A stretch of 64,000 nt of DNA from Salinimonas iocasae (GTDB taxonomy: Bacteria > Pseudomonadota > Gammaproteobacteria > Enterobacterales > Alteromonadaceae), in assembly GCF_006228385.1 (NCBI RefSeq), contig NZ_CP039853.1:284009-348008 (forward strand), given 5' to 3'. A model generated the notes under the pieces. It searched no databases. It saw nothing but the letters and a program-made list of their open reading frames with translations, and had not been told where the DNA came from. This document shows positions 20,471 to 50,077 of this stretch, one piece after another. The position numbers and the translations under genes were made by a program. Each line of letters begins with the position of its first letter. The stretch's first letter is position 1.

Positions 20471-20504
20471 GGGGTTAACGTATGCCGGGGGTGGTGATTG
20501 TCGA
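20471..20504 (-). promoter_or_regulatory. Shared upstream motif, diverged copy (gene ending 18980)
   Basis: On the minus strand a TCG element is followed 19 nt after its first T by GCATACGTT and then AACCCC, matching the TTG...TGACACGTTAACCC pattern with mismatches in both boxes. It ends 25 nt before the start codon. Confidence 0.4.
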
Positions 20505-20557
20505 TTTTAAAGGAAGGTAAGGGCCGCTGATACAGCCCAGCTGATTTTGCTTATACG

Positions 20558-20893
20558 TTAATGGGTGGTTACCGGAACTCCTTGGTCGCTTACTTCCCAT
20601 TCCAATCCATAGTTAGTGCGTACCTGCATGCATCCACCATCATTCAGTCCATATAAAATGCTTTCTTCTACAAAATCGTGATCAAGCATATCGCCAATCT
20701 CATCCAAATGATTCAATGCGCCTATTTCAAGACTGTTAAAGCCAGCGGAGAATTCATAGATGCCATTGCAAACCACATCATCAACACAAAGAGCCATACC
20801 TTGTAGTGTTTTACCGCAGGGTAACGTGACAGTAATGGGATACTGATAGCCGGCAACGGGGGTGAAATTGATTTTCTTGAATGTCTCTAACAT
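20558..20893 (-). CDS. Hypothetical plasmid protein
   Basis: This 111-residue soluble protein (MLETFKKINFTPVAGYQYPI...) has four Cys and many acidic residues and no recognised domain. The start has AAGGA about 7 nt upstream and a copy of the shared upstream motif about 25 nt further out. It lies alone between 18980-20446 and the terminator at 20964. Confidence 0.6.
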   Translation of the reverse strand: MLETFKKINFTPVAGYQYPITVTLPCGKTLQGMALCVDDVVCNGIYEFSAGFNSLEIGALNHLDEIGDMLDHDFVEESILYGLNDGGCMQVRTNYGLEWEVSDQGVPVTTH

Positions 20894-20917
20894 GGTGAGT
20901 CCTTAATGATCGCGTTA

Positions 20918-20955
20918 AGGAGAATGTGTCAGAGGGAGAGCCGGTGACCAATCCG
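20918..20955 (-). promoter_or_regulatory. Shared upstream motif (gene 20558-20893)
   Basis: On the minus strand TTGGTC is followed by TGACACATTCTCC, beginning 20 nt after the first T (19 in most copies). It precedes the RBS of the 111-residue protein. Confidence 0.5.
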
Positions 20956-20963
20956 GTGGAAGC

Positions 20964-20990
20964 AAAAACCGCCCAAGGGGGCGGCTTCTT
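20964..20990 (-). terminator. Intrinsic terminator-like hairpin
   Basis: CCGCCC/GGGCGG hairpin with flanking A and T runs, downstream of the gene ending at 21003 on the minus strand. Confidence 0.6.
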
Positions 20991-21002
20991 AGTAAGTCTG
21001 GT

Positions 21003-21323
21003 TTAGCTGGCCAACTGAATATAAACGTTCGCATCCCGAATAGCTTTCTGTTGCCCCTGCCACATTTTCACCAGATTCTTTAATGCGGTGCTTGGGTTCG
21101 TCTTCATAAGAGACAGGCAGTTTTGAACACATTTCTCAAGTGTTGTCAGGATACCTTCTACAAACAGCGCTTTTTCCTCATTCGTCATGCGGCCTTTAGG
21201 GTCGCTATAAGTGATAGCGCCGGTTTTGTAGTTGACGGTGACCCTTACTTCCCGCAGCTTGGATACCTGCTGAATTTCAAATACGCATGTGTCTTTTTCA
21301 TTTACTACTGCCTGAATTTTCAT
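21003..21323 (-). CDS. Hypothetical plasmid protein
   Basis: From ATG 21323 the protein is MKIQAVVNEKDTCVFEIQQVSK... (106 residues), with strand-rich N-terminal and helical C-terminal halves. I prefer this start to ATG 21359 because AGGAAC lies 6 nt upstream, and because 21359 would fall right beside the shared motif at 21361-21394. No domain was recognised. Confidence 0.6.
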   Translation of the reverse strand: MKIQAVVNEKDTCVFEIQQVSKLREVRVTVNYKTGAITYSDPKGRMTNEEKALFVEGILTTLEKCVQNCLSLMKTNPSTALKNLVKMWQGQQKAIRDANVYIQLAS

Positions 21324-21360
21324 AATGTTCCTATACCTTAATTTGGCTAATTGCTTCATA

Positions 21361-21394
21361 GGTAATGTGACTGATTCAGGGCTGGGGGCGAATG
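21361..21394 (-). promoter_or_regulatory. Shared upstream motif, diverged copy (gene 21003-21323)
   Basis: On the minus strand TCGCCC is followed 19 nt after its first T by AGTCACATTACC. It is close to the consensus TTGCnC...TGnCACRTTnAnCC. Confidence 0.45.
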
Positions 21395-21418
21395 TGAGGG
21401 AACCTTAATCACCACCAA

Positions 21419-21448
21419 TAAAAAACCGCCCCGGGGGCGGTATTCGTT
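21419..21448 (-). terminator. GC-rich hairpin, possible terminator
   Basis: ACCGCCCC/GGGGCGGT hairpin with an A-tract on the left, so a T-tract in the minus-strand transcript. It would end transcription coming from the 21.5-21.6 kb side. Confidence 0.55.
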
Positions 21449-21467
21449 TTAAGTGATTAGCTGTTGG

Positions 21468-21569
21468 CTATTGTTCTGTGTAGTACTCGAGAACCTCAAC
21501 TGTGGCATCTTCTCTATACCGGCTTATTGCTTTCTCTAGCATATGCCTAATGAGCGCACTGAAAGTCAT
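21468..21569 (-). CDS. Possible 33-residue peptide
   Basis: A 33-codon frame (MTFSALIRHMLEKAISRYRE...) ends just before the GC-rich hairpin at 21419-21448. No RBS is visible. It could be a small antitoxin-like or remnant peptide. Support is weak. Confidence 0.25.
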   Translation of the reverse strand: MTFSALIRHMLEKAISRYREDATVEVLEYYTEQ

Positions 21570-21784
21570 ATTTTAAATAAAAATTGTTTCTAATTAACTA
21601 CTAGAGCTTACATACGGCACCTTTCAATTTTTCAGCGTAGAACCTACTTCTTGTTAAATTCGAAAATGCCCAGCAATATTTGTAATATTGTTAACCAATT
21701 AAAACTAAACAAGTACTTTTAAAAAAAATGTTGACTTGTTTATTTTTTAATCTACCCTTAAGAAAAACCAAAGGGAGATTTTTA
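21570..21784. other. AT-rich upstream region of the phospholipase-like gene
   Basis: About 215 bp, very AT-rich, with TTGACT near 21731 and a run of T/A to the RBS GGGAGA just before ATG 21785. A promoter for the plus-strand cassette is likely here, but I cannot fix its boxes. Confidence 0.4.
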
Positions 21785-22564
21785 ATGAAATGGATACTTC
21801 GAATAGTTACATTGCAAGCTTTATTTCTATTGTCATTTTCAAGCTCAGCATCTTCAGCTGATGATTTTATGATTACCTATTGTGACACCTGCTCTTCTTC
21901 AACAGATTTTTCAAGAGCAGCTAACGTTGCTAATAGTGGAAAAGTTTTAGTGTTTAATTTGAGGCACTCGAAAGTAAAAGCATTTCAGTTGTATTATGAG
22001 CCGATGCTAGGCGGCACCCAAGCAGTACCTATTTCCGTACCACAAGAAGCGTTCGATGCTATTGATATGTACCATAATATTATAGATTACTACATAGGCT
22101 ATCTAAACAACACAACGTCCTTTGATAGCACAATGAAATTAGCCGATAAATCTGCTTTCCCTCTATCAACACAAAGCCAAATTCATGGGTCAATGGGTCT
22201 GGCTTGCGGCCCTTCCGGAAATCCTCAAAAAGCTAGCTTTATCCCGGACGGAATATTTGGACCCGCCTGCGCTGCTCATGACAGCTGTTACGACTCGGGT
22301 CAACCACAAGCCCTATGCGATGCAATTTTCAGAGAGGATTTATATGGTGTTATTGAAGACGCTCTTTACAATTCAAGTTCACTTTTAACAAGAGCAATAG
22401 CCAGAAAAGCTTTACGTGAAATTGCCGATGAATATGCTGATTTTGTCGAACAATCAGAAGAAGCTCGCGATGCTTACTGCTCAGTGTCCATAAATAGTAG
22501 TAAACCAAGCTGCACTATGGAGCCATGGAGCCATGGAGCCACCAAGACTATAACCTTAATTTGA
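21785..22564 (+). CDS. Exported phospholipase A2-like protein (C-terminus frameshifted)
   Basis: From ATG 21785 (SD GGGAGA) this is a 259-residue protein with a signal peptide to about residue 24. An N-terminal region with CDTC (33-36) and STDF (39-42) follows. The C-terminal domain carries the phospholipase A2 signature GPACAAHDSCYDSG (Cys162, His165-Asp166, Cys168, Tyr169), where His-Asp is the catalytic pair and Gly/Asp-rich residues bind calcium. The N-terminal region resembles that of the exported protein at 38861-39691. A three-unit 8-bp repeat at 22517-22540 shifts the frame so that translation ends at 22564. With two units it would continue to 22701, just before the membrane partner gene. 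It is probably a secreted toxin or lipid-acting enzyme. Confidence 0.75.
   Translation: MKWILRIVTLQALFLLSFSSSASSADDFMITYCDTCSSSTDFSRAANVANSGKVLVFNLRHSKVKAFQLYYEPMLGGTQAVPISVPQEAFDAIDMYHNIIDYYIGYLNNTTSFDSTMKLADKSAFPLSTQSQIHGSMGLACGPSGNPQKASFIPDGIFGPACAAHDSCYDSGQPQALCDAIFREDLYGVIEDALYNSSSLLTRAIARKALREIADEYADFVEQSEEARDAYCSVSINSSKPSCTMEPWSHGATKTITLI
22517..22540 (+). repeat. Three tandem copies of an 8-bp unit inside the phospholipase-like gene
   Basis: ATGGAGCC is repeated three times without error. Eight is not a multiple of three, so each gain or loss changes the reading frame of the 3' end. With two copies the frame continues for about 45 codons to a stop at 22699-22701. Confidence 0.9.
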
Positions 22565-22701
22565 CTGAAACATTTTCTGGTGTAGTAAACACCCTTTTTG
22601 AATATAATGTAAACTATGTATGTAAAGTCTATATAATTGAAACGAGCCTTGGTTCTTCTCAGCGCTACGAGATTTGCTTCTTAGCACCGACTGGAAATTG
22701 A
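22541..22701 (+). pseudogene. Out-of-frame C-terminal extension of the phospholipase-like gene
   Basis: In the alternative frame the DNA after the 8-bp repeat encodes HQDYNLNLTETFSGVVNTLF, then EYNVNYVCKVYIIETSLG, then SSQRYEICFLAPTGN and a stop at 22701. The composition is protein-like, with two Cys, and it ends 6 nt before the next gene, as in a normal operon. I infer that it is the original C-terminus. Confidence 0.7.
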
Positions 22702-22707
22702 TTACGT

Positions 22708-22986
22708 ATGCTTACTAGGCTTTTAAATCTTTTAAGCCTGTTACTTGGCCTCTTGGTAATGACTTTCTTCATCATAGGAAGTTCATTCTCAGGAGGCTGG
22801 ACTGGTCTCGCTAACTTCTTCATCGTTGCTTTAACCTCTGCTTTTTCTATTATTTTATTGACAGGCATATTTTACCTCAATAGGTATTTCAGAAAAGATA
22901 AACAAAAAATCCCTGTTCCTTTGTTTATGATGTTCTGCTTTTCAGTTGTTTTTCTTTTAGGGTATTTTGTTTTATATTTGAGTTAA
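22708..22986 (+). CDS. Small membrane protein, candidate immunity partner
   Basis: This 92-residue protein has three predicted membrane segments (LLSLLLGLLVMTFFIIGSSF, ANFFIVALTSAFSIILLTGIFYL, LFMMFCFSVVFLLGYFVLYL). It starts 6 nt after the stop of the extended phospholipase frame. The arrangement of an exported toxin-like gene followed by a small membrane gene also occurs at 38861-39915, with unrelated sequences. A role as immunity protein is inferred from this arrangement only. Confidence 0.6.
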   Translation: MLTRLLNLLSLLLGLLVMTFFIIGSSFSGGWTGLANFFIVALTSAFSIILLTGIFYLNRYFRKDKQKIPVPLFMMFCFSVVFLLGYFVLYLS

Positions 22987-23244
22987 CTCCATAGTCTAGA
23001 TTACGAATGTACTATAAAGTAAAATTAGACTTCGAGAATCTTGCTTGTTAAATTAGGGAAATTTAATTAATTCACTGGATACGAGGCCCTGTATCCGAGT
23101 AAACTCCTCGCTCTGGCAACTGCTTCCCATCGAAGAACTAATATATTTACCTGTGAATGAACGTAAGTCCCTGCATTTTCAATCCGAAGGCACAGTGAGG
23201 GACTGGTTGAGTCCAACAACTCGCTGTTTAAGCTGGCCGTATAT
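22987..23244. other. Intergenic region between convergent genes
   Basis: About 260 bp. A minus-strand frame at 23067-23432 (121 codons, Ser/Arg-rich) overlaps the more protein-like 71-codon frame at 23245-23460 and has no good RBS, so I leave it out. Nothing else is evident. Confidence 0.35.
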
Positions 23245-23460
23245 TTATATTTGTTTTTTTCCTGATTGCTTAGAGCCATGCTTGATTCTGAACAACGCGA
23301 CCTGTACCAGCGCCCAGGCATTTTCTTCGTGAAGCTCAGCCAATCTTTGGGTATTGATAATAATGCGGCCGGTATAACCTTTTGCTCTTTCGACCGGCGT
23401 TTTGTATTGGGTAATCGTCGAACAGTCATCACCGGTCAATTCCAACTCTATTGTGCGCAT
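23245..23460 (-). CDS. Small hypothetical protein
   Basis: This 71-residue protein (MRTIELELTGDDCSTITQYK...) has a strand-rich start and a helical basic C-terminus. It overlaps the end of the upstream membrane-protein gene by 13 nt, so they form an operon. No domain was recognised. Confidence 0.5.
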   Translation of the reverse strand: MRTIELELTGDDCSTITQYKTPVERAKGYTGRIIINTQRLAELHEENAWALVQVALFRIKHGSKQSGKKQI

Positions 23461-23765
23461 ACGCCCTCCCCCGTTTCTCCCCTGTTCGCCTGAATAAATT
23501 TGTCAAAAGTGACGATGTAGCCAGACACCATAATGATTAAGCCAATTTTCAGAATCGCCGGCCACGTAAGACTTATTATTGCCCTGAGTGTGTCACCCAA
23601 CCAATATTCCGCCATGTCGATGGTAAAACTTGGCACCTCGATCATAAGGGGAATGGTCATCGCTATTATCAAAAGCATTACAACGCCAGGAACAAGCGCC
23701 GCTCCGCATAGTCCCCACATGAACACTAACCTGCGTAAGTTTTTGTTTAACGCTAACTGTTCCAT
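23448..23765 (-). CDS. Small membrane protein
   Basis: This 105-residue protein has two or three hydrophobic segments (LVFMWGLCGAALVPGVVMLLIIAMTIPLMI and ILKIGLIIMVSGYIVTF). It is translationally coupled to the 71-residue gene downstream. No family was recognised. With its small soluble partner it could be a further plasmid-borne two-gene module. Confidence 0.5.
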   Translation of the reverse strand: MEQLALNKNLRRLVFMWGLCGAALVPGVVMLLIIAMTIPLMIEVPSFTIDMAEYWLGDTLRAIISLTWPAILKIGLIIMVSGYIVTFDKFIQANRGETGEGVCAQ

Positions 23766-23999
23766 ACTATTTCTTAATTTGCTTAGCTATGCCCACCAGC
23801 ATTGGCGGGATTCAGTTATTTATCGTACCTGCAATTTATCGCCGCGAACTGGGTAAAAATGATTATTTCCACACCTTGGCTTATTTGGCCGATTACAAGG
23901 TTGCAGAGAGAATTAGGATGTCAAATTTGGAGGAAGTAATAAGTGCATGAAAAAGGTACCATCGACTAGGTACCTTTATTAACTAAATGACAAAGCGAA

Positions 24000-24299: not shown

Positions 24300-24307
24300 A
24301 GTGCCTC

Positions 24308-24595: not shown

Positions 24596-24611
24596 AACAT
24601 AATCCTTGTGC

Positions 24612-24839: not shown

Positions 24840-26187
24840 TTTCTAAGCCGCCTGTGCGGCGGTTAAGGGCGGGCGTTGGTGTGCCGGGCCGGGTGATTTT
24901 TTCTAAGCCGCCTGTGCGGCGGTTAAGTTTTCAAACCAGCCCCGGATCTTGATTTCGTCTTTCTAAGCCGCCTGTGCGGCGGTTAAGTCGCTACAGAAAA
25001 AGCGATCACCATCCATAGTTTTCTAAGCCGCCTGTGCGGCGGTTAAGGTAGCCGCAGAGGGCGCGCAACTTTCCTTGCATTTCTAAGCCGCCTGTGCGGC
25101 GGTTAAGCGGGCTTTGTCGTTAATGTTAAATGGTTACCATTTCTAAGCCGCCTGTGCGGCGGTTAAGGCGCTACGTGTGGGGCGCGAATGGTGCAACCAT
25201 TTCTAAGCCGCCTGTGCGGCGGTTAAGCGCTCAGCCTGGAACGGGTACGGATACGTCGATTTCTAAGCCGCCTGTGCGGCGGTTAAGTTTACCTCATCTT
25301 CGCTCATGCCATCTTTATATTTCTAAGCCGCCTGTGCGGCGGTTAAGGACGGCTTACACGCATCAGCCGAAAATTTATATTTCTAAGCCGCCTGTGCGGC
25401 GGTTAAGCGACACGGTGCGCCGGTTCTGGATGCGTCCACTTTCTAAGCCGCCTGTGCGGCGGTTAAGTTGAGCGTCAGATTCTCGTTAAATACGATGATT
25501 TTCTAAGCCGCCTGTGCGGCGGTTAAGCCGGATGGCTCCCTTTTAAACCATTACGTGCTTTTCTAAGCCGCCTGTGCGGCGGTTAAGGGTAAACCCGTGC
25601 GCCTGGTGTCGGGCGGGTCTTTCTAAGCCGCCTGTGCGGCGGTTAAGAACAATCATGTCAGCTGGCTCAAGGCCGTTAATTTCTAAGCCGCCTGTGCGGC
25701 GGTTAAGTAACTATCTTCAATGGAATTATCAGACTCATCTTTCTAAGCCGCCTGTGCGGCGGTTAAGGCTATTTCCACCTGTTGCATGATTGCTTGTAAT
25801 TTCTAAGCCGCCTGTGCGGCGGTTAAGTTCCTCAGCCTGCTGCTTTTGTGAGCCGGTCATTTCTAAGCCGCCTGTGCGGCGGTTAAGCCAGGGTAATATC
25901 ATCAAAGCTGGCATCTTTATTTCTAAGCCGCCTGTGCGGCGGTTAAGTCAGGTGCGCCCTTTGTTTTGCATTGCCTGCATTTCTAAGCCGCCTGTGCGGC
26001 GGTTAAGTTTTTTTACTCCCTTTGTTTATTAACGAACAATTTCTAAGCCGCCTGTGCGGCGGTTAAGGTATCTTTGTTGTGAGCCGGTAAAGGCTTTCAT
26101 TTCTAAGCCGCCTGTGCGGCGGTTAAGACAGGGGAATTTCAATGAACTGGGCGGATATATTTCTAAGCCGCCTGTGCGGCGGTTAAG
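24840..26187 (-). CRISPR. Type I-F CRISPR array: 23 identical repeats, 22 spacers
   Basis: A 28-nt repeat (plus strand begins TTTCTAAGCCGCC and ends GCGGCGGTTAAG) recurs exactly every 60 nt from 24840 to 26160, separated by 32-nt spacers. On the minus strand it reads CTTAACCGCCGCACAGGCGG followed by CTTAGAAA, the I-F repeat form with a GCCGCC/GGCGGC stem for Cas6f. Repeat orientation and the cas genes place the leader at the high-coordinate end, so spacer 22 (26128-26159) should be the newest. All 23 repeats are identical, including the trailer-end copy, which suggests an active or recently expanded array. Spacers at 25828-25859 and 26068-26099 share TTGTGAGCCGGT. Confidence 0.98.
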
Positions 26188-35414: not shown

Positions 35415-35444
35415 GATTATTTCCTTGTGCTGAGCTTTGGATAC

Positions 35445-35478
35445 GGGTTAAATGTGACAAGTTGACCGGAGTGAGCAA
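35445..35478 (-). promoter_or_regulatory. Shared upstream motif (genes 35414 to 34937)
   Basis: On the minus strand TTGCTC is followed 19 nt after the first T by TGTCACATTTAACCC. Confidence 0.55.
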
Positions 35479-36976: not shown

Positions 36977-37006
36977 TTGTGTGATTCCTAAGTGTGCTTT
37001 GAACTT

Positions 37007-37040
37007 AGGACTAACGTGCTATATGCAGGTGAGTTTGCAA
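37007..37040 (-). promoter_or_regulatory. Shared upstream motif (decayed gene 36797-36976)
   Basis: On the minus strand TTGCAA is followed 19 nt after the first T by TAGCACGTTAGTCC. Confidence 0.55.
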
Positions 37041-38550: not shown

Positions 38551-38580
38551 ATGGCTTCCCCCTTTTTGTTAATGTTCATG

Positions 38581-38613
38581 GGGTTAACGTGTCACGATGC
38601 TGACATTACACAA
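38581..38613 (-). promoter_or_regulatory. Shared upstream motif (small membrane operon)
   Basis: On the minus strand TTGTGT is followed 19 nt after the first T by TGACACGTTAACCCC, one of the clearest copies. Confidence 0.6.
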
Positions 38614-40065: not shown

Positions 40066-40836
40066 TTAGGCGTCGTCTTTTTTGCCTGAGTAACCAAATG
40101 CGGCCCAAACATCTGGTATAGGATGGATAGGATTTAACTCACCCTGCTCAAGGTCAAAAAAGCCGCCCTGATAGTTTACCTTGCCATGCCTGAGCATCTG
40201 CCAGACAAGATTGGCCATGTAGAACGCTGTGGTATGGTTAACACCAAAATCCTGTCTACGGATGGATTCAGCGTGGCTGCATGACGGTGCCGATTCTTCG
40301 GGGCTATCAAGCAGCAGGTCGCCATACAGATCGTAAAGATTAGGCAAGCGGCTTTGTGACCTGCGACCCAAATGCCCCATAATGACCTGTCCGGTCTTTG
40401 CTCCATTACCACCATCTATCCAGAGTGTATCGCCCCCATAAAAATCCTGAGAGGCTTTACCTAAGCTGTGTCTTGCTTGGGCACTGTCTAAGCATGTCAT
40501 TACAATGTCAGCCCGTCCGGACGGTTTCATATCATGAGCCACCGCGTGTGATTTCCAGTTGGTGCCAAAACCCATATTGATACGGTTAACAAGCACATCA
40601 GCCTTATTCATTCCAATGTCCATAGGCCAGAAATTTTGCCGACCTACATTGGTTTCGCTGACGGTATCGGGATCATATACATGCACCTGCAAGGGGCAGT
40701 CTTCGCCACCGACCATGCGTAGCAGATAGTTTATTTGTGCAAGGTAGCTAAGCAAGTAGCTGCCTGTGCCACCGGCACCGATGACAGTGATTCTCACGGT
40801 TTTATTAAAAAATGAAGTAGGAGTGATAAAGCTCAT
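40066..40836 (-). CDS. PRTRC system ThiF-family protein
   Basis: Start chosen at ATG 40836 (MSFITPTSFFNKTVRITVIGAG...) because it overlaps the stop of protein B (TAATG) and has GGAA upstream. The 256-residue protein has the ThiF/E1 nucleotide-binding fold: VIGAGGTGSYLLSYLAQ (Rossmann loop), HVYDPDTVSETNVGRQNFWPMDIGMNKADVL (adenylation motif) and IVMTCLDSAQARHSL. The role in the PRTRC system is unknown. The ThiF family adenylates ubiquitin-like C-termini. Confidence 0.88.
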   Translation of the reverse strand: MSFITPTSFFNKTVRITVIGAGGTGSYLLSYLAQINYLLRMVGGEDCPLQVHVYDPDTVSETNVGRQNFWPMDIGMNKADVLVNRINMGFGTNWKSHAVAHDMKPSGRADIVMTCLDSAQARHSLGKASQDFYGGDTLWIDGGNGAKTGQVIMGHLGRRSQSRLPNLYDLYGDLLLDSPEESAPSCSHAESIRRQDFGVNHTTAFYMANLVWQMLRHGKVNYQGGFFDLEQGELNPIHPIPDVWAAFGYSGKKDDA

Positions 40837-41603
40837 TAACGGATTCCTTGTGCGTGTTTGGTCAGCCATTCACCGAACGTACCGGCGAAGTGCATTTCCC
40901 CTGCTTTTACTTGGGCATCGGCCTTTTCTTTATCTTGCCAGAACTGCACATGTTGGCGATTATCGAGGTAGTAAGAACGAAAGCGGTTAGTTCTATAATT
41001 AGTGTGAGTAAAATAAGAATCGAATAAGGTGTCTTCCATTTCATTTAACGTTGTGAAATCTCTTTTTGCAGGAACCCTTGCGCCCCCCTGACATAATGAG
41101 CCGCCACTGATATTCATCAGCGGTGCATGATATAGCTTTGTCTGAGTGGATGGACGCTGATTGGTCGCTTTGGCATAAACGGTCAAAGCACTGAAATTAC
41201 TCCCAGGATTAACAGCAAAAACCAGACTCGGCCACCAAACCTTTAACGGTGTTTGTTTGCCGACATTGAACCACATATCGCGCTTTTGTTTGGGGGTGTG
41301 CCATACCAGCAAGTTGGGGGTGTCCACCAGCACATTATCGGGTGCAATCAGTGACCTTAAATCAACCTTTGCAGGCTGATTAACGCTTTTGTTGGCTCTG
41401 CGAGAGATTGTGCGCCGGATATTGGCTATGTCGGTCAAGCGCCCTGCTTGCATCTGACCATTTTTTATATCATGGATAGTGGCATATTGGCTGGTGGAGT
41501 CTTGGTAATTGTCGTCGTGCCCGTATAAAACGATAGCCTTTTGAGGAACGGGCACCTCAGCCTGTGGTTTAAGATTCGGTTTGTGCGCCATAGGGTTTAG
41601 CAT
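40836..41603 (-). CDS. PRTRC system protein B
   Basis: This 255-residue protein matches PRTRC protein B in position and content: QKAIVLYGHDDNYQDSTSQYATIHDIKNGQMQAGRLT at the N-terminus and NISGGSLCQGGARVP in the middle. It overlaps the F stop by 35 nt and the ThiF start by 1 nt. A GGAGT RBS supports ATG 41603. The biochemical role is unknown. Confidence 0.85.
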   Translation of the reverse strand: MLNPMAHKPNLKPQAEVPVPQKAIVLYGHDDNYQDSTSQYATIHDIKNGQMQAGRLTDIANIRRTISRRANKSVNQPAKVDLRSLIAPDNVLVDTPNLLVWHTPKQKRDMWFNVGKQTPLKVWWPSLVFAVNPGSNFSALTVYAKATNQRPSTQTKLYHAPLMNISGGSLCQGGARVPAKRDFTTLNEMEDTLFDSYFTHTNYRTNRFRSYYLDNRQHVQFWQDKEKADAQVKAGEMHFAGTFGEWLTKHAQGIR

Positions 41604-42948
41604 TGTACGACTCCATGATGGTTTCTAAATAGTTCATTAACCACCAGCCGATAAGGTAACGCTGTGCTTTTTCGACCCAATCTGAGTCAGTCCAGTCAGC
41701 TTCAAAGATGCACTGTTCGCAGGTTTCCATTTGATATTGAGCGTGTTCATTGATGAGTTGTTTCGTTCTGTAACAAGCATCGATTGAGGGCATTGAATAT
41801 AGCAACCCTACGCCAAAATCTTCTATATCAGTTAGCGACTCAAGTGCGTCTCCCCCTTGCGGCAGGTGCTCTTGAATTACCGTGGCAACAGCGATTAGCT
41901 TGTCCACCACTACGGTATGCTGACAATGTGGCGAACTGCGCCAGTCCTGCAAATCCTGAAGAAACACTTCATCAATTTCGCCGCCGGTATAGTCAGTACC
42001 GGACTGAAGGACGATTTTCATTAGTGATTCGGACGCGCTTTCTCTGTAGGATTGCAAAAAATCACCTGTTTCGCCCTCAGTCTCATCAAAGTCTCCATCT
42101 GGAATATCCGTTAAGTCCATCATGTGCATATCAAACATCATTGATGTTAAATCACTTATCGCATCACCCATAATGTGCTTTAGCTGGCGAAACCACTGTG
42201 AAAATGAATCAAGCTTCCAAGCATCTTGCTTAGCATAAGTTTCAAGCTGTAAAGCCTGTTCAGTTGTCAAAGTAATATAATCGTCTGTCCAGTCATGACA
42301 GCCAAAGGCATGAGGTACGGGTGTGGTTTCACACTGACAGGCTATATGAAGTGCTATAGCTGCTAAGAACTTGCGTGTTTTGGGATCTAATTTTTCAGCG
42401 TATAACAAAAAACAAGAAACCGGCTCAGTTGTCTCGATTGAAACGCAACTGGTGGGGGCGGTTTCAGAAATTTCGCCATAAAAGCCGCTCTCATTTCTAT
42501 CAAACAACCCAATGCTAACGTTATCGTATCTGAAAGCTGGTACTTCACCTGTCAATGTTTCAATGGCCTGTGGAACCATTGCAATACTGTCCAGCAATGC
42601 GTTTTGCACTTTTCTAAGGGATTGTCTTGCTGCTTCAAAAACATCGTTTTGCAATGCATCAAAATCGCTGTCTTTTTTTAGCGTATTTAGCAGAGCAATA
42701 GCTTCATCATGACTGGTGTGGGAAACCTCAAAGTAAGGCTTTAAGTAAGATTCAATCGCGTTGAGGTTCTCAAGCAGTGGGGAGCAACCTTCAACTGGTG
42801 CCAATACGTGCTGTGCGTCACTATCAAACGTTATTTGCTGCCCCACCAGCTCATAACCGAACGGCCTTACATCAGGCAGACTCGGTATGGTGAGGGGCTT
42901 TTCTGCGAAGTTGGTATCTGCTCTAGGGCGCTCAACGGTAACTGACAT
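41569..42948 (-). CDS. PRTRC system protein F
   Basis: This 459-residue soluble acidic protein (MSVTVERPRADTNFAEKPLT...) is in the position and size range of PRTRC protein F and is rich in Cys and Trp in its C-terminal third (CEQCIFEADWTDSDWVEKAQRYLIGWWL). RBS AAAGGAA. It overlaps the small frame at 42867-43073 by 82 nt. Assigned by synteny and pattern. Confidence 0.75.
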   Translation of the reverse strand: MSVTVERPRADTNFAEKPLTIPSLPDVRPFGYELVGQQITFDSDAQHVLAPVEGCSPLLENLNAIESYLKPYFEVSHTSHDEAIALLNTLKKDSDFDALQNDVFEAARQSLRKVQNALLDSIAMVPQAIETLTGEVPAFRYDNVSIGLFDRNESGFYGEISETAPTSCVSIETTEPVSCFLLYAEKLDPKTRKFLAAIALHIACQCETTPVPHAFGCHDWTDDYITLTTEQALQLETYAKQDAWKLDSFSQWFRQLKHIMGDAISDLTSMMFDMHMMDLTDIPDGDFDETEGETGDFLQSYRESASESLMKIVLQSGTDYTGGEIDEVFLQDLQDWRSSPHCQHTVVVDKLIAVATVIQEHLPQGGDALESLTDIEDFGVGLLYSMPSIDACYRTKQLINEHAQYQMETCEQCIFEADWTDSDWVEKAQRYLIGWWLMNYLETIMESYNAKPYGAQTES

Positions 42949-43073
42949 CGACGTTTTTCCTTTAGTTCCATTCGAATGAACTGATGCTCATGGAAAGCTG
43001 CGTTGTCACTTTCCAGCGCGGTTTGCCACGCTTGAAAGGCGGTGGCTGGCCCATTAGCATCAGATTTAGCCAT
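42867..43073 (-). CDS. Possible overlapping small gene between PRTRC C and F
   Basis: A 68-codon frame starts at ATG 43073, overlapping the stop of protein C. Its first half (MAKSDANGPATAFQAWQTAL, then ESDNAAFHEHQFIRMELKEKRR) reads like a real helical protein and fills the only gap between C and F. The second half overlaps the start of F. It may be an undescribed PRTRC-linked gene. Confidence 0.45.
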   Translation of the reverse strand: MAKSDANGPATAFQAWQTALESDNAAFHEHQFIRMELKEKRRCQLPLSALEQIPTSQKSPSPYRVCLM

Positions 43074-43290
43074 TGCTGTTAGGTGGCAGCTTAGGCAGGT
43101 TGTAAACAATGCGGTCGTCCTCAACAACACCATCGTCCTCATAAATCTTACCGAACCGGAAAAACGAATAGTTTTTTCGAATGGCTTTGATGCTTTCTTC
43201 AAATGTTGCATTCGGACACTCGCAGTCAACTTCCAGAGAACCTAATTTGAAAACCCGTTTAAGCGGCGTGCTTTGAATAAATGCTGTCAT
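43066..43290 (-). CDS. PRTRC system protein C
   Basis: This 74-residue protein (MTAFIQSTPLKRVFKLGSLEVD, then C-CPNATFEESIKAIRKNY) has the size and pattern of PRTRC protein C, with a short strand-rich N-terminus, a Cys pair and P-LPPN at the end. AGGAG precedes the start. It is 14 nt after protein E. Confidence 0.82.
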   Translation of the reverse strand: MTAFIQSTPLKRVFKLGSLEVDCECPNATFEESIKAIRKNYSFFRFGKIYEDDGVVEDDRIVYNLPKLPPNSNG

Positions 43291-43304
43291 GGTCTTTGCT
43301 CCTG

Positions 43305-43715
43305 TTAATCTAAATCTAAATCTGCAATGGATGATGCGGCTGGCGTGTCGGTAGGCTGTGCGTCCTCTCCAAGAGCCTCACTTACCGGATCAGTTGGTTC
43401 TTCTTGCTTGGCAGGGGCGCTGGCATTCGCCATGCTTTGCGTGGCCTGTGCGGTATTGGCTTTTAAAGTGGTGTCCACGTAGCTTTCAGAGAAGGTATTC
43501 AGATGATTGATGAAACCATCATCCAAATCGGCGGCGCTGGCAGTTAATTTCAATGGCTGAGTCAAAGCTGCGCGTAATTTCGGATCGGCGGCATCACCAA
43601 TATTGTTTTCAGTCATTACCACGACATTCAGCTTGCCGTTACCACCATCTTGAACGCAGAGTGATAATTGTTTCAGATTGGCTTTATGAATCAGTTGTGA
43701 CAGTTCAGTAAACAT
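43305..43715 (-). CDS. PRTRC system protein E
   Basis: This 136-residue protein starts MFTELSQLIHKANLKQLSLC, with LNVVVMTENN and a Pro/Ala/Thr-rich acidic tail (KQEEPTDPVSEALGEDAQPT). This is the E-type layout: a small folded N-terminal domain followed by a disordered tail. RBS AAGGAA. It lies 51 nt after ParB, as usual in these operons. Confidence 0.8.
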   Translation of the reverse strand: MFTELSQLIHKANLKQLSLCVQDGGNGKLNVVVMTENNIGDAADPKLRAALTQPLKLTASAADLDDGFINHLNTFSESYVDTTLKANTAQATQSMANASAPAKQEEPTDPVSEALGEDAQPTDTPAASSIADLDLD

Positions 43716-43766
43716 TACTATTCCTTTTTAAAGTTTGGCGGGGGGTGACTCCCCCGCCTGTATTCG

Positions 43767-45470
43767 TTACTGAGTAACGTGGGTCAGATACCAGCTTGGT
43801 GCAAATTCAGAGTAATCGTGGTCAAGTTCCACCAGCGTTTTAATCAAATCCGCTTTTTTGCCTTTAGTGGCTTTGGTGAAGGAACCTTCCTCTTTGGCGT
43901 TCATAGTGGCGGGAACATTGGCATCTTTAGCCACTTCAATAATTTGCTGTGTGGTGAAGATTTTCAGATTGGCTTCGTTAGGCTCCCATGCCTTAACCGC
44001 GACACTTTTAGCGTGTTCTGGCTCAGACTTGAGTAGTTCAATCATCAGATTTGTTGCATCAGAGCCGCTTAAATTATCCTTTTCAGTCATACCGTGACTG
44101 ATAGCCGCAAGCATTTCCTCCTGCATGGTTTGCATATCAAGATTTTTGTATGCGTATTGGACAACTGAACCAAATCCACCTGTTAGGCTTTTTTCTTTAC
44201 CGCTATAGCCAGTTGAGTCCACCAGCGCAGCAAGCATAAATGCGCTTTTAAGCAGATTGTTTTTTGCAAAGTGGCTTGCACTTGCTTGGCGTAACAATGC
44301 TTTATGATGTTCCTGGGCCATGTTGCCGATGGTGCCGGACTCAGACTTTTGGGCTGAGGATTTCGCTTGAGATTTTGCCATGCTCTTAGCTTTTGCAGGG
44401 TCGGTTTTTGCAACCTCCTGCACGTTAGCTGATGCCATAGCCGCGCTTTCTGCCTTTGATAAAGACTGCTGGCACTTGGCAAAGCATACTTTGTCGATAC
44501 ACTGGTTTTCGGTCAGTTCACCCTCTTTACCCGTTACGTCTGACATAACCACTATGCGTTTTTCACAGGGCGTACAACCGTCTTTATATTGTTGCTCCCC
44601 CACCACATCAGCATTGACCGTACTACGGTCTTTTTGGGCTGATTCAGACAGGTATAGCACCTTACCGAACCGTTCTTCCGCTTGCTTACGAATACCTGCA
44701 AGCCACTCAGCCGTTTTTTCCCGAAAGCAGGTGATTTTGGCGCACTTTGCTTCGGTGCTTACATCATCGAGCAAGCCCATCTGGTGAAAGGTGTTATGTG
44801 GACAACTATTACATTCACCCTTATCGAACTTAGCAATACTTAATGGTGTTTGCTTTGCGCCGATTTGTAGCTTTAACTCTTTTGCTGACCAGCCTTGTGC
44901 TAATACCACATCAATAAGTTTATCCTGACCTTGATGTGAAAATGGCGCTATTGCCATTGCATGACCAACAGTGATTTTTTCTCGACTGAGCGCATCTAGT
45001 ACCTTGTCGGTACACTTCATTAATTCAAGACGCTCATTAACCTTCTTTAGCGGCCAGTTAAGCGCATCTGACACTGACTGGCGGTCCCCCCCGTACAGGC
45101 TATTAAATTCCTGTGCTGCACGACCTTCATCTACAATAGACAGGTCGCTGCGAATGGTGTTTTCCTGTAAATGGATTATGTAGGCTTCACGATCATCTAC
45201 CTGCTTTACCAGCACTGGCACTTCTGATAATTCAAGTTCCAGCGCCAAATCACGGCGACCATAACCACCAAGCAGTTCAAGGTATCCTTTTTCGGTAGGA
45301 TGGGGGCGCGTGATCAGGTTTTGTAAAACGCCGTGGCTACGGATGCTTTCTCGCATTTCGCTGCGAGACTTCTCTGGTCGGGAACTGCGCTTATTGCCCA
45401 TGCTGAAATCCAGCAGCAAGCTTGGGTGAACTTTCTCAAGGGTTTTATCAGGTAGTGCAGCAAAATCCAT
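43767..45470 (-). CDS. PRTRC system ParB-family protein
   Basis: This 567-residue ParB-superfamily protein has an N-terminal ParB/Srx box (LLGGYGRRDLALEL, VDDREAYIIHLQENTIRSDLS), a central helix-turn-helix (TVGHAMAIAPFSHQG region) and a Cys-rich part (CNSCPHNTFHQM, AKCAKITCFREK, CTPCEKR, CIDKVCFAKC) that may bind zinc. The C-terminal half is helical. It heads the PRTRC operon downstream of a good copy of the shared upstream motif. No ParA or parS-like iteron was recognised nearby. Confidence 0.9.
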   Translation of the reverse strand: MDFAALPDKTLEKVHPSLLLDFSMGNKRSSRPEKSRSEMRESIRSHGVLQNLITRPHPTEKGYLELLGGYGRRDLALELELSEVPVLVKQVDDREAYIIHLQENTIRSDLSIVDEGRAAQEFNSLYGGDRQSVSDALNWPLKKVNERLELMKCTDKVLDALSREKITVGHAMAIAPFSHQGQDKLIDVVLAQGWSAKELKLQIGAKQTPLSIAKFDKGECNSCPHNTFHQMGLLDDVSTEAKCAKITCFREKTAEWLAGIRKQAEERFGKVLYLSESAQKDRSTVNADVVGEQQYKDGCTPCEKRIVVMSDVTGKEGELTENQCIDKVCFAKCQQSLSKAESAAMASANVQEVAKTDPAKAKSMAKSQAKSSAQKSESGTIGNMAQEHHKALLRQASASHFAKNNLLKSAFMLAALVDSTGYSGKEKSLTGGFGSVVQYAYKNLDMQTMQEEMLAAISHGMTEKDNLSGSDATNLMIELLKSEPEHAKSVAVKAWEPNEANLKIFTTQQIIEVAKDANVPATMNAKEEGSFTKATKGKKADLIKTLVELDHDYSEFAPSWYLTHVTQ

Positions 45471-45499
45471 GTTGGTACTCCGGTCTGTTCAAAGGATAT

Positions 45500-45533
45500 G
45501 GGAGTAACGTGTCATGAATGCTCTAATCGGCAA
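45500..45533 (-). promoter_or_regulatory. Shared upstream motif (PRTRC operon)
   Basis: On the minus strand TTGCCG is followed 19 nt after the first T by TGACACGTTACTCCC, about 30 nt before the ParB start. Confidence 0.6.
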
Positions 45534-46107: not shown

Positions 46108-46136
46108 GTTATCTCCTGTCCATGACTATTGGGTAC

Positions 46137-46170
46137 AGGATTAACGTTGCATGACTGGGGAGGTTGGCAA
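46137..46170 (-). promoter_or_regulatory. Shared upstream motif (gene 45883-46107)
   Basis: On the minus strand TTGCCA is followed 19 nt after the first T by TGCAACGTTAATCC. Confidence 0.55.
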
Positions 46171-46260
46171 TTTAGGGAGAAACTACTAGCAGTCTCACTA
46201 ATCCTTGAAGGGGCCGTTAGCAGCCTCCATCTAGTAACTAACTGATTATGAGGAAATAAC

Positions 46261-46854: not shown

Positions 46855-46865
46855 TTGTGAAGTAC

Positions 46866-46888
46866 AAGCCTGCCATGGCGGCAGGCTT
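46866..46888. terminator. Hairpin between convergent genes
   Basis: AAGCCTGCC-ATGGC-GGCAGGCTT, a 9-bp stem directly after the stop of the 197-residue gene and before the end of the leftward operon. Confidence 0.7.
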
Positions 46889-46891
46889 TAG

Positions 46892-47119
46892 TTATACCTC
46901 AGATGAACCTATCCATTGGTCGCCCAGATAAGCGTCCCAACCAAATGGAGAATGCATGTCGTAGTCCACCAGCTCAAGAGCATCGTGCGTCCACATCCCG
47001 TCCGCTGGTGGCAATTCAGTTACTACCTCTCCTCCCAAATCTTTTATGATTAGGTTCAAGTTTTCATAGCCAACCAGTAGGTCAGGCTCTTTTTCGGTGA
47101 CAGCTCGTGCGACAATCAT
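46892..47119 (-). CDS. Small hypothetical protein
   Basis: This 75-residue acidic protein (MIVARAVTEKEPDLLVGYEN...) is third in the operon 47750 to 46892, with a 32-nt gap to the gene before it and GGAGAAAA as RBS. Trp-rich C-terminus (FGWDAYLGDQWIG). Family unknown. Confidence 0.5.
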   Translation of the reverse strand: MIVARAVTEKEPDLLVGYENLNLIIKDLGGEVVTELPPADGMWTHDALELVDYDMHSPFGWDAYLGDQWIGSSEV

Positions 47120-47151
47120 TCTTTTCTCCGTATATGCTGCGGGTGGTTCGC

Positions 47152-47415
47152 CTAAAACTTCACCCGAAGCTTTTTGATTTTGGTCATTACCGAGTTCATG
47201 TGGTACTGCATCTGGCTAAGAGAGATAGGCTCGGGGTTCTCGATGACGTAGGCATAAAGCCGCGCCCCCGTATCCAACTGAAACTCTTCAATGGCGGAAC
47301 CCATTAACGCCACCAGCATGGCTAACTCTGCACTGCGTAAAGCACCAGCCTGAATCATGCGTGCATCAGGGTTTATGCTGGTGGATTTACTGTAAAAGCC
47401 GTGCTGTAAGTTCAT
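47152..47415 (-). CDS. Small hypothetical protein
   Basis: This 87-residue soluble helical protein (MNLQHGFYSKSTSINPDARM...) overlaps the 112-residue gene by 4 nt (ATGA), second in the same operon. Sequence SLSQMQYHMNSVMTKIKKL suggests a helical C-terminus. Family unknown. Confidence 0.55.
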   Translation of the reverse strand: MNLQHGFYSKSTSINPDARMIQAGALRSAELAMLVALMGSAIEEFQLDTGARLYAYVIENPEPISLSQMQYHMNSVMTKIKKLRVKF

Positions 47416-47750
47416 GCTGCGCTCCGCTTAACTGTCTGAGGAATAAATTTGCTTAGTCTGGCCACGCATTTTCCGAAGTCGCGGTTTCTGTCACCGATAA
47501 TCTGCAAGTGCCAGGCTTTTTTCTTGCGGGCGTAGTTCTTATTAAAGTGCTGTAGAAGAGTGTCAGCGCCGCCATTTTGGTAAAAGCCCGGTGACGTTTT
47601 CCATTTTGGACGTCTGTTACCCACACTGCCGTAATTGTGGTTGTACTGAATGTAAAATACCGGAACTGGGATACAAAAGCCTCGCTCTACTGCCTGGGCA
47701 GCTGTAAGGGTCTTCCCGTTGAGGTTAATCGGACTGAATTCTTTTAGCAT
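47412..47750 (-). CDS. Hypothetical basic protein
   Basis: This 112-residue basic protein (MLKEFSPINLNGKTLTAAQA...) contains NHNYGSVGNRRPKWKTSPGFYQNGG and NYARKKKAWHLQIIGDRNRDFGK, suggesting nucleic-acid binding. It is first in a three-gene operon, with a good copy of the shared upstream motif at 47779. AGGAAAA serves as RBS. Family unknown. Confidence 0.6.
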   Translation of the reverse strand: MLKEFSPINLNGKTLTAAQAVERGFCIPVPVFYIQYNHNYGSVGNRRPKWKTSPGFYQNGGADTLLQHFNKNYARKKKAWHLQIIGDRNRDFGKCVARLSKFIPQTVKRSAA

Positions 47751-47778
47751 GGTATTTTCCTGTTCTCTGTTGAATTTG

Positions 47779-47811
47779 GATTCAACGTGTCAGGAATAGC
47801 CGGGGGCGCAA
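47779..47811 (-). promoter_or_regulatory. Shared upstream motif (operon 47750 to 46892)
   Basis: On the minus strand TTGCGC is followed 19 nt after the first T by TGACACGTTGAATCC, a near-consensus copy. Confidence 0.6.
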
Positions 47812-48012
47812 GATGTGCGGAAGAGAAGTTCTAAGTTAATAGAGTAAAAATTCTTTTTACAATAGAAAGCCTCGCCTGGAGGCTTTAAGGTTTTGCTTTT
47901 ACTGATTGACGATCAAGATTTTTATCTCAGGAGCCCACACAAAAAGTGCTTCAAGGAGCTGTTTTTCTGTATTTAAGCCTTTGAAAAATCAACATGCTCT
48001 TGCAGCAAATTT

Positions 48013-48447
48013 CTATTCTAGAATGTTGTTATTTCTATCTAAAATAGCACACTTCTCTGCTCCAAAACCATTGTCCTTCAATACAAAATCTATATCGCTG
48101 ATCAACTCAGAATCTCGGTCTTTGAAGTCAGTTATCACCCCTGTATATACGTCTAGATAATCATGGCGTTCTACACCTGATTGAAGTCGAAAATGCTCAG
48201 TTCCAGACTCGCTGCGAAAATTATCGAAAAATTTATGACAGACCGTTTCAGCAGCTTTATAATCATTCACGACCCAGGCTTGGATCAGCCTAAATGGTTC
48301 TGGTACTGCGGTGTTTAACCCTTTTATTCGGCGTTCTGGATGATTGCTAAACCCTATTTTTACCCAATTAGGGAGGCAAGGTGTTTCAATCAAATATACA
48401 AAACCAGACTTCTTATTAGGGTCATACTCTCTATATTCTCTATACAT
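48013..48447 (-). CDS. GIY-YIG nuclease-like protein (T5orf172 type)
   Basis: From ATG 48447 (AAGGA upstream) the 144-residue protein contains the T5orf172-type GIY-YIG pattern: GFVYLIETPCLPNWVKIGFSNHPERRIKGLNTA, then FRLIQAW and KAAETVCHKFF. The frame upstream of this ATG adds a hydrophobic, non-homologous extension and is rejected. This group often occurs in phages and plasmids. DNA-cleaving activity is possible but unproven. Confidence 0.75.
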   Translation of the reverse strand: MYREYREYDPNKKSGFVYLIETPCLPNWVKIGFSNHPERRIKGLNTAVPEPFRLIQAWVVNDYKAAETVCHKFFDNFRSESGTEHFRLQSGVERHDYLDVYTGVITDFKDRDSELISDIDFVLKDNGFGAEKCAILDRNNNILE

Positions 48448-48580
48448 TACTTTATCCTTAAATAGCAAAGTATCCAACTTCAATATAAATATTGGTAAGA
48501 TAGCACTAAACAAGAGTACAACGGCGGAGCGACCTATGAAATATGTAGTTGGAATTTCGCAAGATGTGAAACGTTGAATC

Positions 48581-48606
48581 AAAAAAAGGCCGCAATCGCG
48601 GCCCTT
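48581..48606 (-). terminator. Hairpin downstream of the 189-residue gene
   Basis: GGCCGC-AATC-GCGGCC preceded by an A-tract (T-tract on the minus strand), just after the stop at 48622. Confidence 0.75.
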
Positions 48607-48621
48607 GTGAAATAGTGAGTT

Positions 48622-49191
48622 TTATACAGCTTGGTTAATCGGCAGGTTCCAACCAAGATCATCACTAAGCTCTTCAGTGCATCGCTCTATAAGGACTGGC
48701 AGGTCCGCCGCTTTGTATCCTTTCCAGCGCTGGTTGAATCTGCGCTCAGAATAGCTTTCGTGGGTGATGTATTTCACATTCATAGCTCTGAAGACATACC
48801 GCAAGTAGTCAACAATGTTAGAACAGTATCCCTCGCTATCATTTAACTTTTGAATCCGCTTATGAATGCGCTTCCCCGACTTGAGCGCTTCATCCAGCTT
48901 GAAACCTATTTTTGGTTGATTAAGGTCTAGTGCAATTTCATATCCATAATAGGAATCAATCACGCCTTTCTCTGCCACATCGCCGGGGCCAACCTGAGAG
49001 GTGATAAGTAAATCGCCTATCCCGCTGAGACATTTGGGTATTTCATCGCCCATACCGACAAACTCGGGTGTATCGTAATAATTTGCAGATTTAACAAGGG
49101 AGAACGATACGTGTATGTGGCCATAGTCGGACCATCTGTGATTAATAGTTGCAAGTCTGGCCATTACGCTTACTTTTTCGATCGGTTTCAT
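48622..49191 (-). CDS. Hypothetical plasmid protein
   Basis: This 189-residue soluble protein (MKPIEKVSVMARLATINHRW...) has mixed strands and helices and no recognised domain. It is a single gene between a terminator and a near-consensus copy of the shared upstream motif. AGGAAA precedes the start. Confidence 0.6.
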   Translation of the reverse strand: MKPIEKVSVMARLATINHRWSDYGHIHVSFSLVKSANYYDTPEFVGMGDEIPKCLSGIGDLLITSQVGPGDVAEKGVIDSYYGYEIALDLNQPKIGFKLDEALKSGKRIHKRIQKLNDSEGYCSNIVDYLRYVFRAMNVKYITHESYSERRFNQRWKGYKAADLPVLIERCTEELSDDLGWNLPINQAV

Positions 49192-49218
49192 AGAGCTTTT
49201 CCTGTTACTTGTTGATGT

Positions 49219-49252
49219 AGGTTCAACGTGCCAGGGATTGATGGTGGCGCAA
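49219..49252 (-). promoter_or_regulatory. Shared upstream motif (gene 48622-49191)
   Basis: On the minus strand TTGCGC is followed 19 nt after the first T by TGGCACGTTGAACC. Confidence 0.6.
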
Positions 49253-49302
49253 AAACAGAGGAAATATTTGGTAAGAAAATAGCCTCACTGGGAGGCCTTG
49301 GT

Positions 49303-49533
49303 TTAGTGAATTGATACGCCTCTATTTGCTAAGTGCGTTGAAAGATATAAAGACATTGAGCCTTTATCTTCGGCCGTAACAGCAACGCTGTTTTGTACGC
49401 ACCAGGGCACATTTGCCTCGTCCAGCTGCGAAGCCCAAAAACCAAAATCAGCGTCTGATTTTTCATGATAAACAGCATAACAATGCGCATAGAACCCTTG
49501 CAGGTAATCATATTGCTTACGTGTAATTTGCAT
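49303..49533 (-). CDS. Small hypothetical protein
   Basis: From ATG 49533 (GAGGAAAA upstream) this is a 76-residue protein (MQITRKQYDYLQGFYAHCYA...). The 17-codon upstream extension is rejected because it covers the RBS. Trp-rich middle (FGFWASQLDEANVPW). A diverged TTGC element occurs upstream without the ACGTT box. Confidence 0.55.
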   Translation of the reverse strand: MQITRKQYDYLQGFYAHCYAVYHEKSDADFGFWASQLDEANVPWCVQNSVAVTAEDKGSMSLYLSTHLANRGVSIH

Positions 49534-49636
49534 CGTATTTTCCTCAAATGTTTCAGTGGGACTGAGAGGGTTGGGAATAGTCAATTGGCAAGCGTTGGCG
49601 CCGCAATCTTAAGGAGAACTTTACGGCGCTTACTAA

Positions 49637-50017
49637 TCACCAATCAGCGTATTTCTGAGCGACTTTTCCGTAAATTTCAGCTACCTTTAAATGCGTAACA
49701 CCGTATCCGGCCAAGGCATGAACAGCATTGCCAATATCACCTGTGTAGAAGCATTCGTGATTTACCAGCTGCTCTTCAATAATCTGGTCGATACCCTTCT
49801 CTGCTATTTCTTTCGCTCGTCCTTCCTCATGAATAACTTTGAGACGATCAGAGAACTCTTTGGCTTTCAACTTAGGCACACAGTCGCCAGCACCAAGAAC
49901 TGTGCAGTATTCGACGCCTGGAGCCTTACGCTCCTCAAATTGCTCATTAGTAAAGGCAAAGAACACCCCCAGTTCGTTAAAAAGCTCCGTTTGCTTCTCT
50001 TGGATAAATGCAGTCAT
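49637..50017 (-). CDS. Hypothetical plasmid protein (DUF7659-like)
   Basis: This 126-residue protein starts MTAFIQEKQTELFNELGVFF, with FTNEQFEERKAPGVEYCTVLGAGDCVPKLKAKEF, a pattern I associate with a small uncharacterised plasmid/phage family (DUF7659). It has a helical C-terminus. It follows a copy of the shared upstream motif. The family recall is tentative. Confidence 0.6.
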   Translation of the reverse strand: MTAFIQEKQTELFNELGVFFAFTNEQFEERKAPGVEYCTVLGAGDCVPKLKAKEFSDRLKVIHEEGRAKEIAEKGIDQIIEEQLVNHECFYTGDIGNAVHALAGYGVTHLKVAEIYGKVAQKYADW

Positions 50018-50044
50018 GGTTTTTCCCGTTAGTTGTTTCAGTTG

Positions 50045-50077
50045 GGATAAACGTGTCAGAAATTAGCGGGGCCGCAA
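50045..50077 (-). promoter_or_regulatory. Shared upstream motif (gene 49637-50017)
   Basis: On the minus strand TTGCGG is followed 19 nt after the first T by TGACACGTTTATCC. Confidence 0.6.

Follow-up and report, generated by a model that had tools for sequence, protein, structure and literature searches.

The window analysed here, the last 64 kb of the 348,008-bp contig C2 (NZ_CP039853.1), one of the two contigs of the Salinimonas iocasae genome, carries a recurrent element, TTGC-N15-TGnCACRTTnAnYCC, ahead of a series of minus-strand genes. Motif, recurrence, gene-specific pairing and the position of that pairing can be read from the letters themselves, and on this footing we think it fairly probable that the element is a promoter dedicated to one family of Alteromonadaceae plasmids, with a lock against transcriptional read-through built into it. 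TTGC (as the -35) and the extended -10 TGnCACRTT would set transcription start at a purine 7 nt downstream (+1), and the six bases between the -10 and +1 would double as an arm antisense to the Shine–Dalgarno (SD) region, present only in RNA that comes from further upstream. RNA begun at +1 would lack the arm and leave the SD open. Tandem, tightly packed and separately promoted genes would be prone to read-through, and RNA running in from a neighbour would hold both arms; because the segment between the -10 and +1 complements the SD region of its own gene, such read-through transcripts should fold and hide the SD. If a start at the gene's own promoter frees the SD and read-through hides it, each tandem gene would therefore be translated mainly from its own promoter.

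With up to three mismatches, the pattern has nine matches in the window, where 1.9 are expected by chance (sd 1.4, largest 5) and none of 100 shuffles gave nine. A relaxed pattern has six exact matches in the genome, all six on C2 and none on the 3.8-Mb chromosome. Eight of the nine window matches are minus-strand sites claimed in an earlier note on this DNA (the upper coordinates in the first eight rows of Table 1), and the ninth (33470, plus strand) lies outside that set. The 19-nt spacing that the note had described as fixed holds in all eight of these strong sites and is 20 at 20893. Its count of about eleven sites stands for these eight; the remaining three are degenerate. The copy before 20446 has TCGACA instead of TTGC and TACGTT as its -10 (matrix score 5.7), that before 20893 has TTGG (8.3), and TTGG..CACATT precedes 21359 (3.5) with a separate CACATT before 21323 (11.4). 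The scores fit the earlier statement that other genes lack the motif: among 45 other chosen open reading frame (ORF) starts in the window (16–64 kb) the top score is 6.4 and none reaches 7, higBA, the Abi gene and the exported-protein cassettes not being separately identified among them. Because of that top score, 20446 does not rise above background by score and can be separated only by its hairpin. The position matrix adds two sites past the right edge of the window, C2:5941 and C2:6816, if the contig is circular. Ten C2 sites score 19.9–30 (nine of them training sites), the next best C2 match scores 16.2 and the best on reversed C2 15.5. With up to two mismatches, the genome has 28 chromosomal and 12 C2 matches versus 17 for the reversed pattern; a chromosomal regulon was rejected, there being no exact chromosomal match.

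The PRTRC parB locus of C2 has near relatives in Salinimonas chungwhensis (98%) and S. profundi (100%), and the C2 backbone is mostly collinear with plasmid pAMDE1 of Alteromonas mediterranea (rep protein 55%, proteins of the type IV secretion system (T4SS) region about 26–63% identical), which PLSDB types as conjugative, MOBP/MPF_I. The accessible part of a survey of these plasmids (PMC5217437) treats the region common to pAMDE1, pASTE61-200 and pGLAAG01 as the plasmid core. A matrix retrained on 18 sites from two Salinimonas replicons, C2 and an S. chungwhensis contig, found 13 matches versus 1 reversed in pAMDE1 1–45 kb (threshold 11.5) and 14 versus 1 in pGLAAG01 1–40 kb (threshold 12). 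Among the 116 annotated starts in these block pieces, 20 score at least 14 (none reversed) and 24 at least 12 (1 reversed), the latter being 10 genes on pAMDE1 and 14 on pGLAAG01, and the proteins that the blocks share are about 30–77% identical between plasmids. These scans, which had been proposed with the original observation, support a plasmid promoter class shared with related plasmids. Elsewhere on pAMDE1 the excess is slight or absent: in 258–303 kb there are 5 matches versus 4 reversed, and four of these 5 duplicate sites already present in the first piece, while four further 50-kb pieces give 12 versus 6 in total. A partly duplicated copy of the motif block lies at 262–277 kb of pAMDE1; the doubled stretch spans about 14 kb (L104:23705-37650 and L107:4074-18019 in our sequence pieces) and its protein accessions are mostly identical.

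Outside these blocks, pieces of Vibrio campbellii pIFL1_1 (3 versus 3 reversed), a Pseudoalteromonas plasmid (2 versus 2) and V. tasmaniensis p2 (1 versus 1) showed no excess, nor did a piece of pASTE61-200 (2 versus 4), although both of its matches precede annotated starts. With one mismatch allowed, 121 of 394 genomes across the order have a match, a count with no total against a control; among 30 loci listed from that scan with short flanks, two sites of at least 16 occur only at the window's own locus. Of 44 IMG/VR stretches with an exact match, six have two or more matches of at least 14, and at least three of these appear by eye to contain internal repeats. The A. macleodii Te101 plasmid pTE101a (NZ_CP018322.1) carries such sites as well, with predicted plus-strand +1 positions at 10213, 16049, 18855, 22757, 28518, 30444 (a T, and the least certain), 30756 and 32816, all predicted to within 1–2 nt; the consulted portion of PMC5864184 reports 99 transcription start sites on the Te101 plasmid from differential RNA sequencing (dRNA-seq).

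The geometry of the sites fits a promoter. RNA polymerase of the sigma70 type initiates about 7 nt downstream of the -10. With a core-only matrix that is blind to everything downstream of the -10, 31 of the 116 genes pass (8 with reversed upstreams), and counting on from the -10 of these genes, position seven holds a purine in 29 and position six a pyrimidine in 26, which we take as the predicted +1 and its neighbour. This supports the earlier description, in which the -10 is extended, TTGC acts as the -35 and 16 bp separate the two. The distance from the -10 to the start codon is 26–36 nt in 28 of the 31. Further sigma70 extended -10 features (A-11, T-7, TGn and a spacer of 16–18 bp to TTG) are present, in sites that were selected on those columns, and TGn is not universal. 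Eleven of 22 plus-strand sites lie 11–73 nt behind the preceding gene of the same strand. By eye, terminator-like hairpins stand ahead of some sites (4950 and 13998 in piece L113, 17470 in L104 and 20893 in the window), and at the two L113 sites the T-run continues into TTGC.

The segment between the -10 and +1, "AnYCC" in the motif, complements the SD region of its own gene with letters that differ from gene to gene, a covarying arm that the earlier note had overlooked. Examples are AACCCT/AGGGTT (C2:5941), CTCCAAGTT/AACTTGGAG (pAMDE1 parB), AGCCCT/AGGGCT (pGLAAG01 28194) and CCCCTGT/ACAGGGG (S. chungwhensis 65067). We compiled 42 sites: 24 picked by the matrix (10 from pAMDE1, 14 from pGLAAG01), 13 on C2 and 5 on the S. 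chungwhensis contig. Not included were the S. chungwhensis orthologues of C2 sites and the weak site 18640 of that contig, nor the sites of A. stellipolaris (G037) or window 21323. One site, whose annotated start leaves no leader, was dropped. In the remaining 41, native arm–SD duplexes average -7.23 kcal/mol versus -5.16 kcal/mol for permuted pairs, and none of 20,000 permutations was as low as native. When only the 23 matrix-picked sites are taken, 7 of 20,000 permutations were as low; for the C2 sites alone none was, or 5 with the arm trimmed to -6..-1. These figures bear on an alternative that we consider quite improbable, in which the sites are ordinary promoters of shared ancestry and the complementarity arises incidentally, the discriminator being rich in C and the SDs rich in G. 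YCC can pair with GGR in any case, which fits the already low average of the permuted pairs, and when the arms of the 23 matrix-picked sites are trimmed to -6..-1, 352 of 20,000 permutations equal native, a result that also weighs against the read-through lock. However, over the 41 sites the native pairs surpass every permutation of the same arms and SDs and, against shared ancestry, no flanking similarity among the sites is visible by eye.

Where the pairing lies is equally informative. In sliding windows of eight bases, the signal is confined to windows from -10..-3 to -4..+4, with z of -6.3 at -6..+2, -0.9 at -2..+6 and +1.5 at +1..+8, and from -1.0 to +1.5 upstream of -10..-3. Because the signal is gone at +1..+8, the arm ends approximately at the predicted transcript start. 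This loss speaks against a riboregulator, an explanation that we regard as unlikely, in which transcripts begin at CACRTT or further upstream, every transcript contains the hairpin, and a protein, small RNA or temperature opens the SD. A riboregulator would account for a hairpin that covaries and for arms that take in the last bases of CACRTT in several genes (for example C2:6816 and 5941), yet it leaves both the -35/-10 spacing and the pyrimidine–purine pair at -1 and +1, 7 nt from the -10, without a reason; it is also hard to reconcile with 10 of the 22 sites lying only 11–59 nt behind the previous gene, with scant room for another promoter.

The predicted effect on SD access has the direction that a read-through lock would demand. 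Over the 41 leaders, the mean cost of opening the SD is 5.0 kcal/mol in read-through RNA, 1.7 in RNA from +1 and 3.2 with the letters of the arm shuffled; in 76 motif-less genes treated with the same cut geometry the values are 3.0 versus 2.2 kcal/mol. The gap between read-through and own transcript is 3.39 for motif genes versus 0.84 for motif-less genes (Mann–Whitney p 2e-5). It is larger than 1.5 in 25 of 41 versus 15 of 76, and the SD is more occluded in read-through by more than 0.3 kcal/mol in 32 of the 41 leaders. Comparison of related genes points the same way. A gene with below-cutoff matches to PAPS-reductase/DndC, 64–65% identical between pAMDE1 and either C2 or pGLAAG01, has the motif on all three replicons with three different hairpins. 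On C2 as on pAMDE1, both parB and a short ORF before the Ref-family nuclease gene (matched by position) have the motif and a paired arm, with letters that differ between the two plasmids; the 189-aa gene has a strong hairpin on pAMDE1 and a short one on C2.

Several observations weigh against a promoter with a built-in read-through lock. In nine of the 41 leaders read-through is not clearly costlier than the own transcript, and its cost lies above that of the arm-shuffled version in only 26. Arms are weak at several sites (35414 in the window, 13998 in L113, 1895 in L104), and some extend 2–3 nt beyond +1. Hairpins had already been seen when the 18 Salinimonas sites were chosen by hand, and among those left out, window 21323, S. 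chungwhensis 78469, 81219 and 18640, and A. stellipolaris g37 44875 have no fold. The -10 lacks T-10 of TATAAT and mostly also T-12: in the 31 sites, themselves selected on these columns, position -12 is C in 18, G in 6, A in 5 and T in 2, and position -10 in TATAAT numbering is C in all 31, with T absent. Conservation is also partial: pGLAAG01 296–341 kb, which holds its PRTRC genes, has 2 matches versus 1 reversed and thus no real excess, and the DUF7659 orthologue of pAMDE1 (28478) is outside the 34 best of the 116 starts.

On C2 the motif sites are all on the minus strand; their span begins at about 304 kb, passes over the end of the contig and reaches 6.8 kb, with the rep gene (2.2–3.4 kb) inside the span and the T4SS region beginning below 298 kb; those of pAMDE1 lie within 1–33 kb, ahead of T4SS genes at 42.8 kb. 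This arrangement of the motif genes, which are small, mostly point the same way and adjoin the T4SS as a block on both replicons, together with block gene types such as the Ref-family nuclease, would suit a single-strand promoter like Frpo or ssi used when a leading region enters by conjugation. We hold this to be very improbable: unlike the Frpo described in the available text of PMC11541004, the -35/-10 windows here have no covarying pairing with the leader, and no oriT or relaxase was located. For the relaxase, PF03432 was searched in the genome and four related plasmids, other relaxase families not being searched; a conserved 1016-aa protein has relatives named IcmB. A PF05713 search of the genome was also negative. 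A reading of the sites as attC-like recombination sites was rejected. A giant ORF annotated as N-6 DNA methylase lies in the T4SS region of both replicons, at 263515-277236 of C2 (left of the window) and 62945-76630 of pAMDE1, where it has about 4,560 aa; the two are 46% identical.

The read-through lock might, more tentatively, extend to a plasmid-wide regulon, in which each promoter carries a private antisense of its own gene's ribosome site and translation is allowed only when RNA begins at that promoter, the host's RNA polymerase is steered to the nACRTT -10 by a plasmid factor, and a large block of establishment or maintenance genes stays off until the plasmid activates the promoter class. 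The proposal that these genes form one plasmid-wide set holds in so far as they share a promoter class on C2 and related plasmids; no alternative sigma factor was found on the plasmid with PF04542, and all 11 Sigma70_r2 matches are chromosomal. The unusual -10 would presumably be used by a host or plasmid factor.

Table 1. Motif copies, leaders and associated features in the window (window coordinates; +1 positions are predictions).
Feature	Coordinates	Strand	Promoter elements	Arm, SD and remarks
DUF7659 gene (Pfam; start 50017), promoter and leader	50018..50077	-	TTGC at 50077; -10 CACGTT 50055-50050; +1 50043	arm within 50049-50044 (TATCCC); SD GGGA
189-aa gene (start 49191), promoter and leader	49192..49252	-	-10 CACGTT 49230-49225; +1 49218	arm GAACCT; SD AGGA; short, rank 21 of 41
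112-aa gene (start 47750), promoter and leader	47751..47811	-	-10 CACGTT 47789-47784; +1 47777	arm GAATCC; SD AGGA; short, rank 36 of 41
74-aa gene (start 46107), promoter and leader	46108..46170	-	-10 AACGTT 46148-46143; +1 46136	arm AATCCT(GT) with (AC)AGGA
PRTRC parB (start 45470), promoter and leader	45471..45533	-	-10 CACGTT 45511-45506; +1 45499	arm ACTCC with GGAGT
67-aa gene (start 38550), promoter and leader	38551..38613	-	-35 TTGT; -10 CACGTT 38591-38586; +1 38579	arm AACCCC with GGGG
15-codon ORF (start 36976), promoter and leader	36977..37040	-	-10 CACGTT 37018-37013; +1 37006	arm TCCTAAG with CTTAGGA; upstream of Ref-family nuclease gene 36773-36135
77-aa gene (start 35414), promoter and leader	35415..35478	-	-10 CACATT 35456-35451; +1 35444	arm pairs very weakly with SD (rank 40 of 41)
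111-aa gene (start 20893), degenerate copy and leader	20894..20951	-	TTGG; spacing 20; -10 CACATT	arm TCCTTAA with TTAAGGA; upstream terminator-like CCGCCC..GGGCGGTTTTT (by eye)
488-aa gene (start 20446), degenerate copy and leader	20447..20504	-	TCGACA..TACGTT; score 5.7	arm GTTAACCCC with GGAGTTAAC, one mismatch
Doubtful copy before 21359/21323	21360..21418	-	TTGG..CACATT, then CGCCCCC	no predicted fold
PRTRC cassette	40066..45470	-		ParB 45470, protein E 43715, 43290, 42948, E2-like 41603, ThiF 40869

The promoter at 45533 would serve the whole PRTRC cassette. A weak copy, TTGT..CACATT, stands at 59897-59956 (minus strand) before a 7-codon ORF, its arm GCTACT pairing with AGTAGC; the S. chungwhensis counterpart (81219) has no fold. 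In the leaders of the genes starting at 47750, 49191 and 50017, a second stem is possible by eye (GTTGA..TCAAC, GTTT..AAAC) with the anti-SD bases in its loop, and a pseudoknot is conceivable there. The window further holds a CRISPR array (24840-26187), whose 23 repeats are 28 nt long and match CRISPR-DR4, a Cas1 gene at 34559-33591, and a full-length match to Rfam isrN at 15216-15358 (minus strand; 60.6 bits, gathering 44). We take isrN to be a Salmonella island small RNA family, and its presence in a marine plasmid is unexpected.

The closest parallels that we found are in phage T4. The consulted parts of PMC3014915 and PMC2988022 describe SD-sequestering leaders for genes e, soc, 49 and I-TevI; in e and I-TevI the SD-hiding hairpin has its 5' arm within a late promoter, so that long upstream transcripts are silent and the gene's own transcript is translated, and in gene e the structure cuts synthesis about 100-fold. 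At the sequence level, though not at every site, the plasmid element resembles e and I-TevI in having the SD in the 3' arm of a hairpin and the 5' arm in the promoter. It differs in that one promoter class, whose arm fills the stretch from -10 to +1, extends over many genes of a plasmid block, in that the -10 is nACRTT and not T4's TATAAATA, and in that no late sigma factor encoded by the element itself was found. In the pLS20 family, according to the portion of PMC8708921 consulted, establishment genes are shielded by two regulatory sequences: EGeRS1 blocks expression by upstream read-through over 400–600 bp, with no regular promoter shown, and EGeRS2 places Reg operators at a strong promoter. 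Both systems repeat a regulatory element before several plasmid genes, and both would shield these from read-through, whereas the element here is only some 60 bp long and would combine the promoter with the lock, and no conservation upstream of TTGC is seen by eye. Frpo and ssi also provide repeated promoters with inverted repeats ahead of plasmid genes, and Frpo is a structure with -35 and -10 in its duplex (PMC11541004, in the part consulted); covarying pairing of -35 and -10 is not seen here, the leader being the only partner examined. A literature search that lay mostly outside the subscription literature did not find this promoter class described, nor was the term 'promoter' found in the accessible part of the plasmid survey PMC5217437.

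Silencing of read-through by an overlapping promoter and SD hairpin has so far been described for single phage genes, and what C2 and its relatives carry appears to be a plasmid-wide version of this single-gene logic, built into one promoter class. The 35-bp promoter provides a tag for plasmid genes that are otherwise unknown. If the proposed lock is true, it would account for the way in which plasmid genes that are crowded on one strand, each with its own promoter, escape leaky expression, and it would offer a compact means of making expression proof against read-through.

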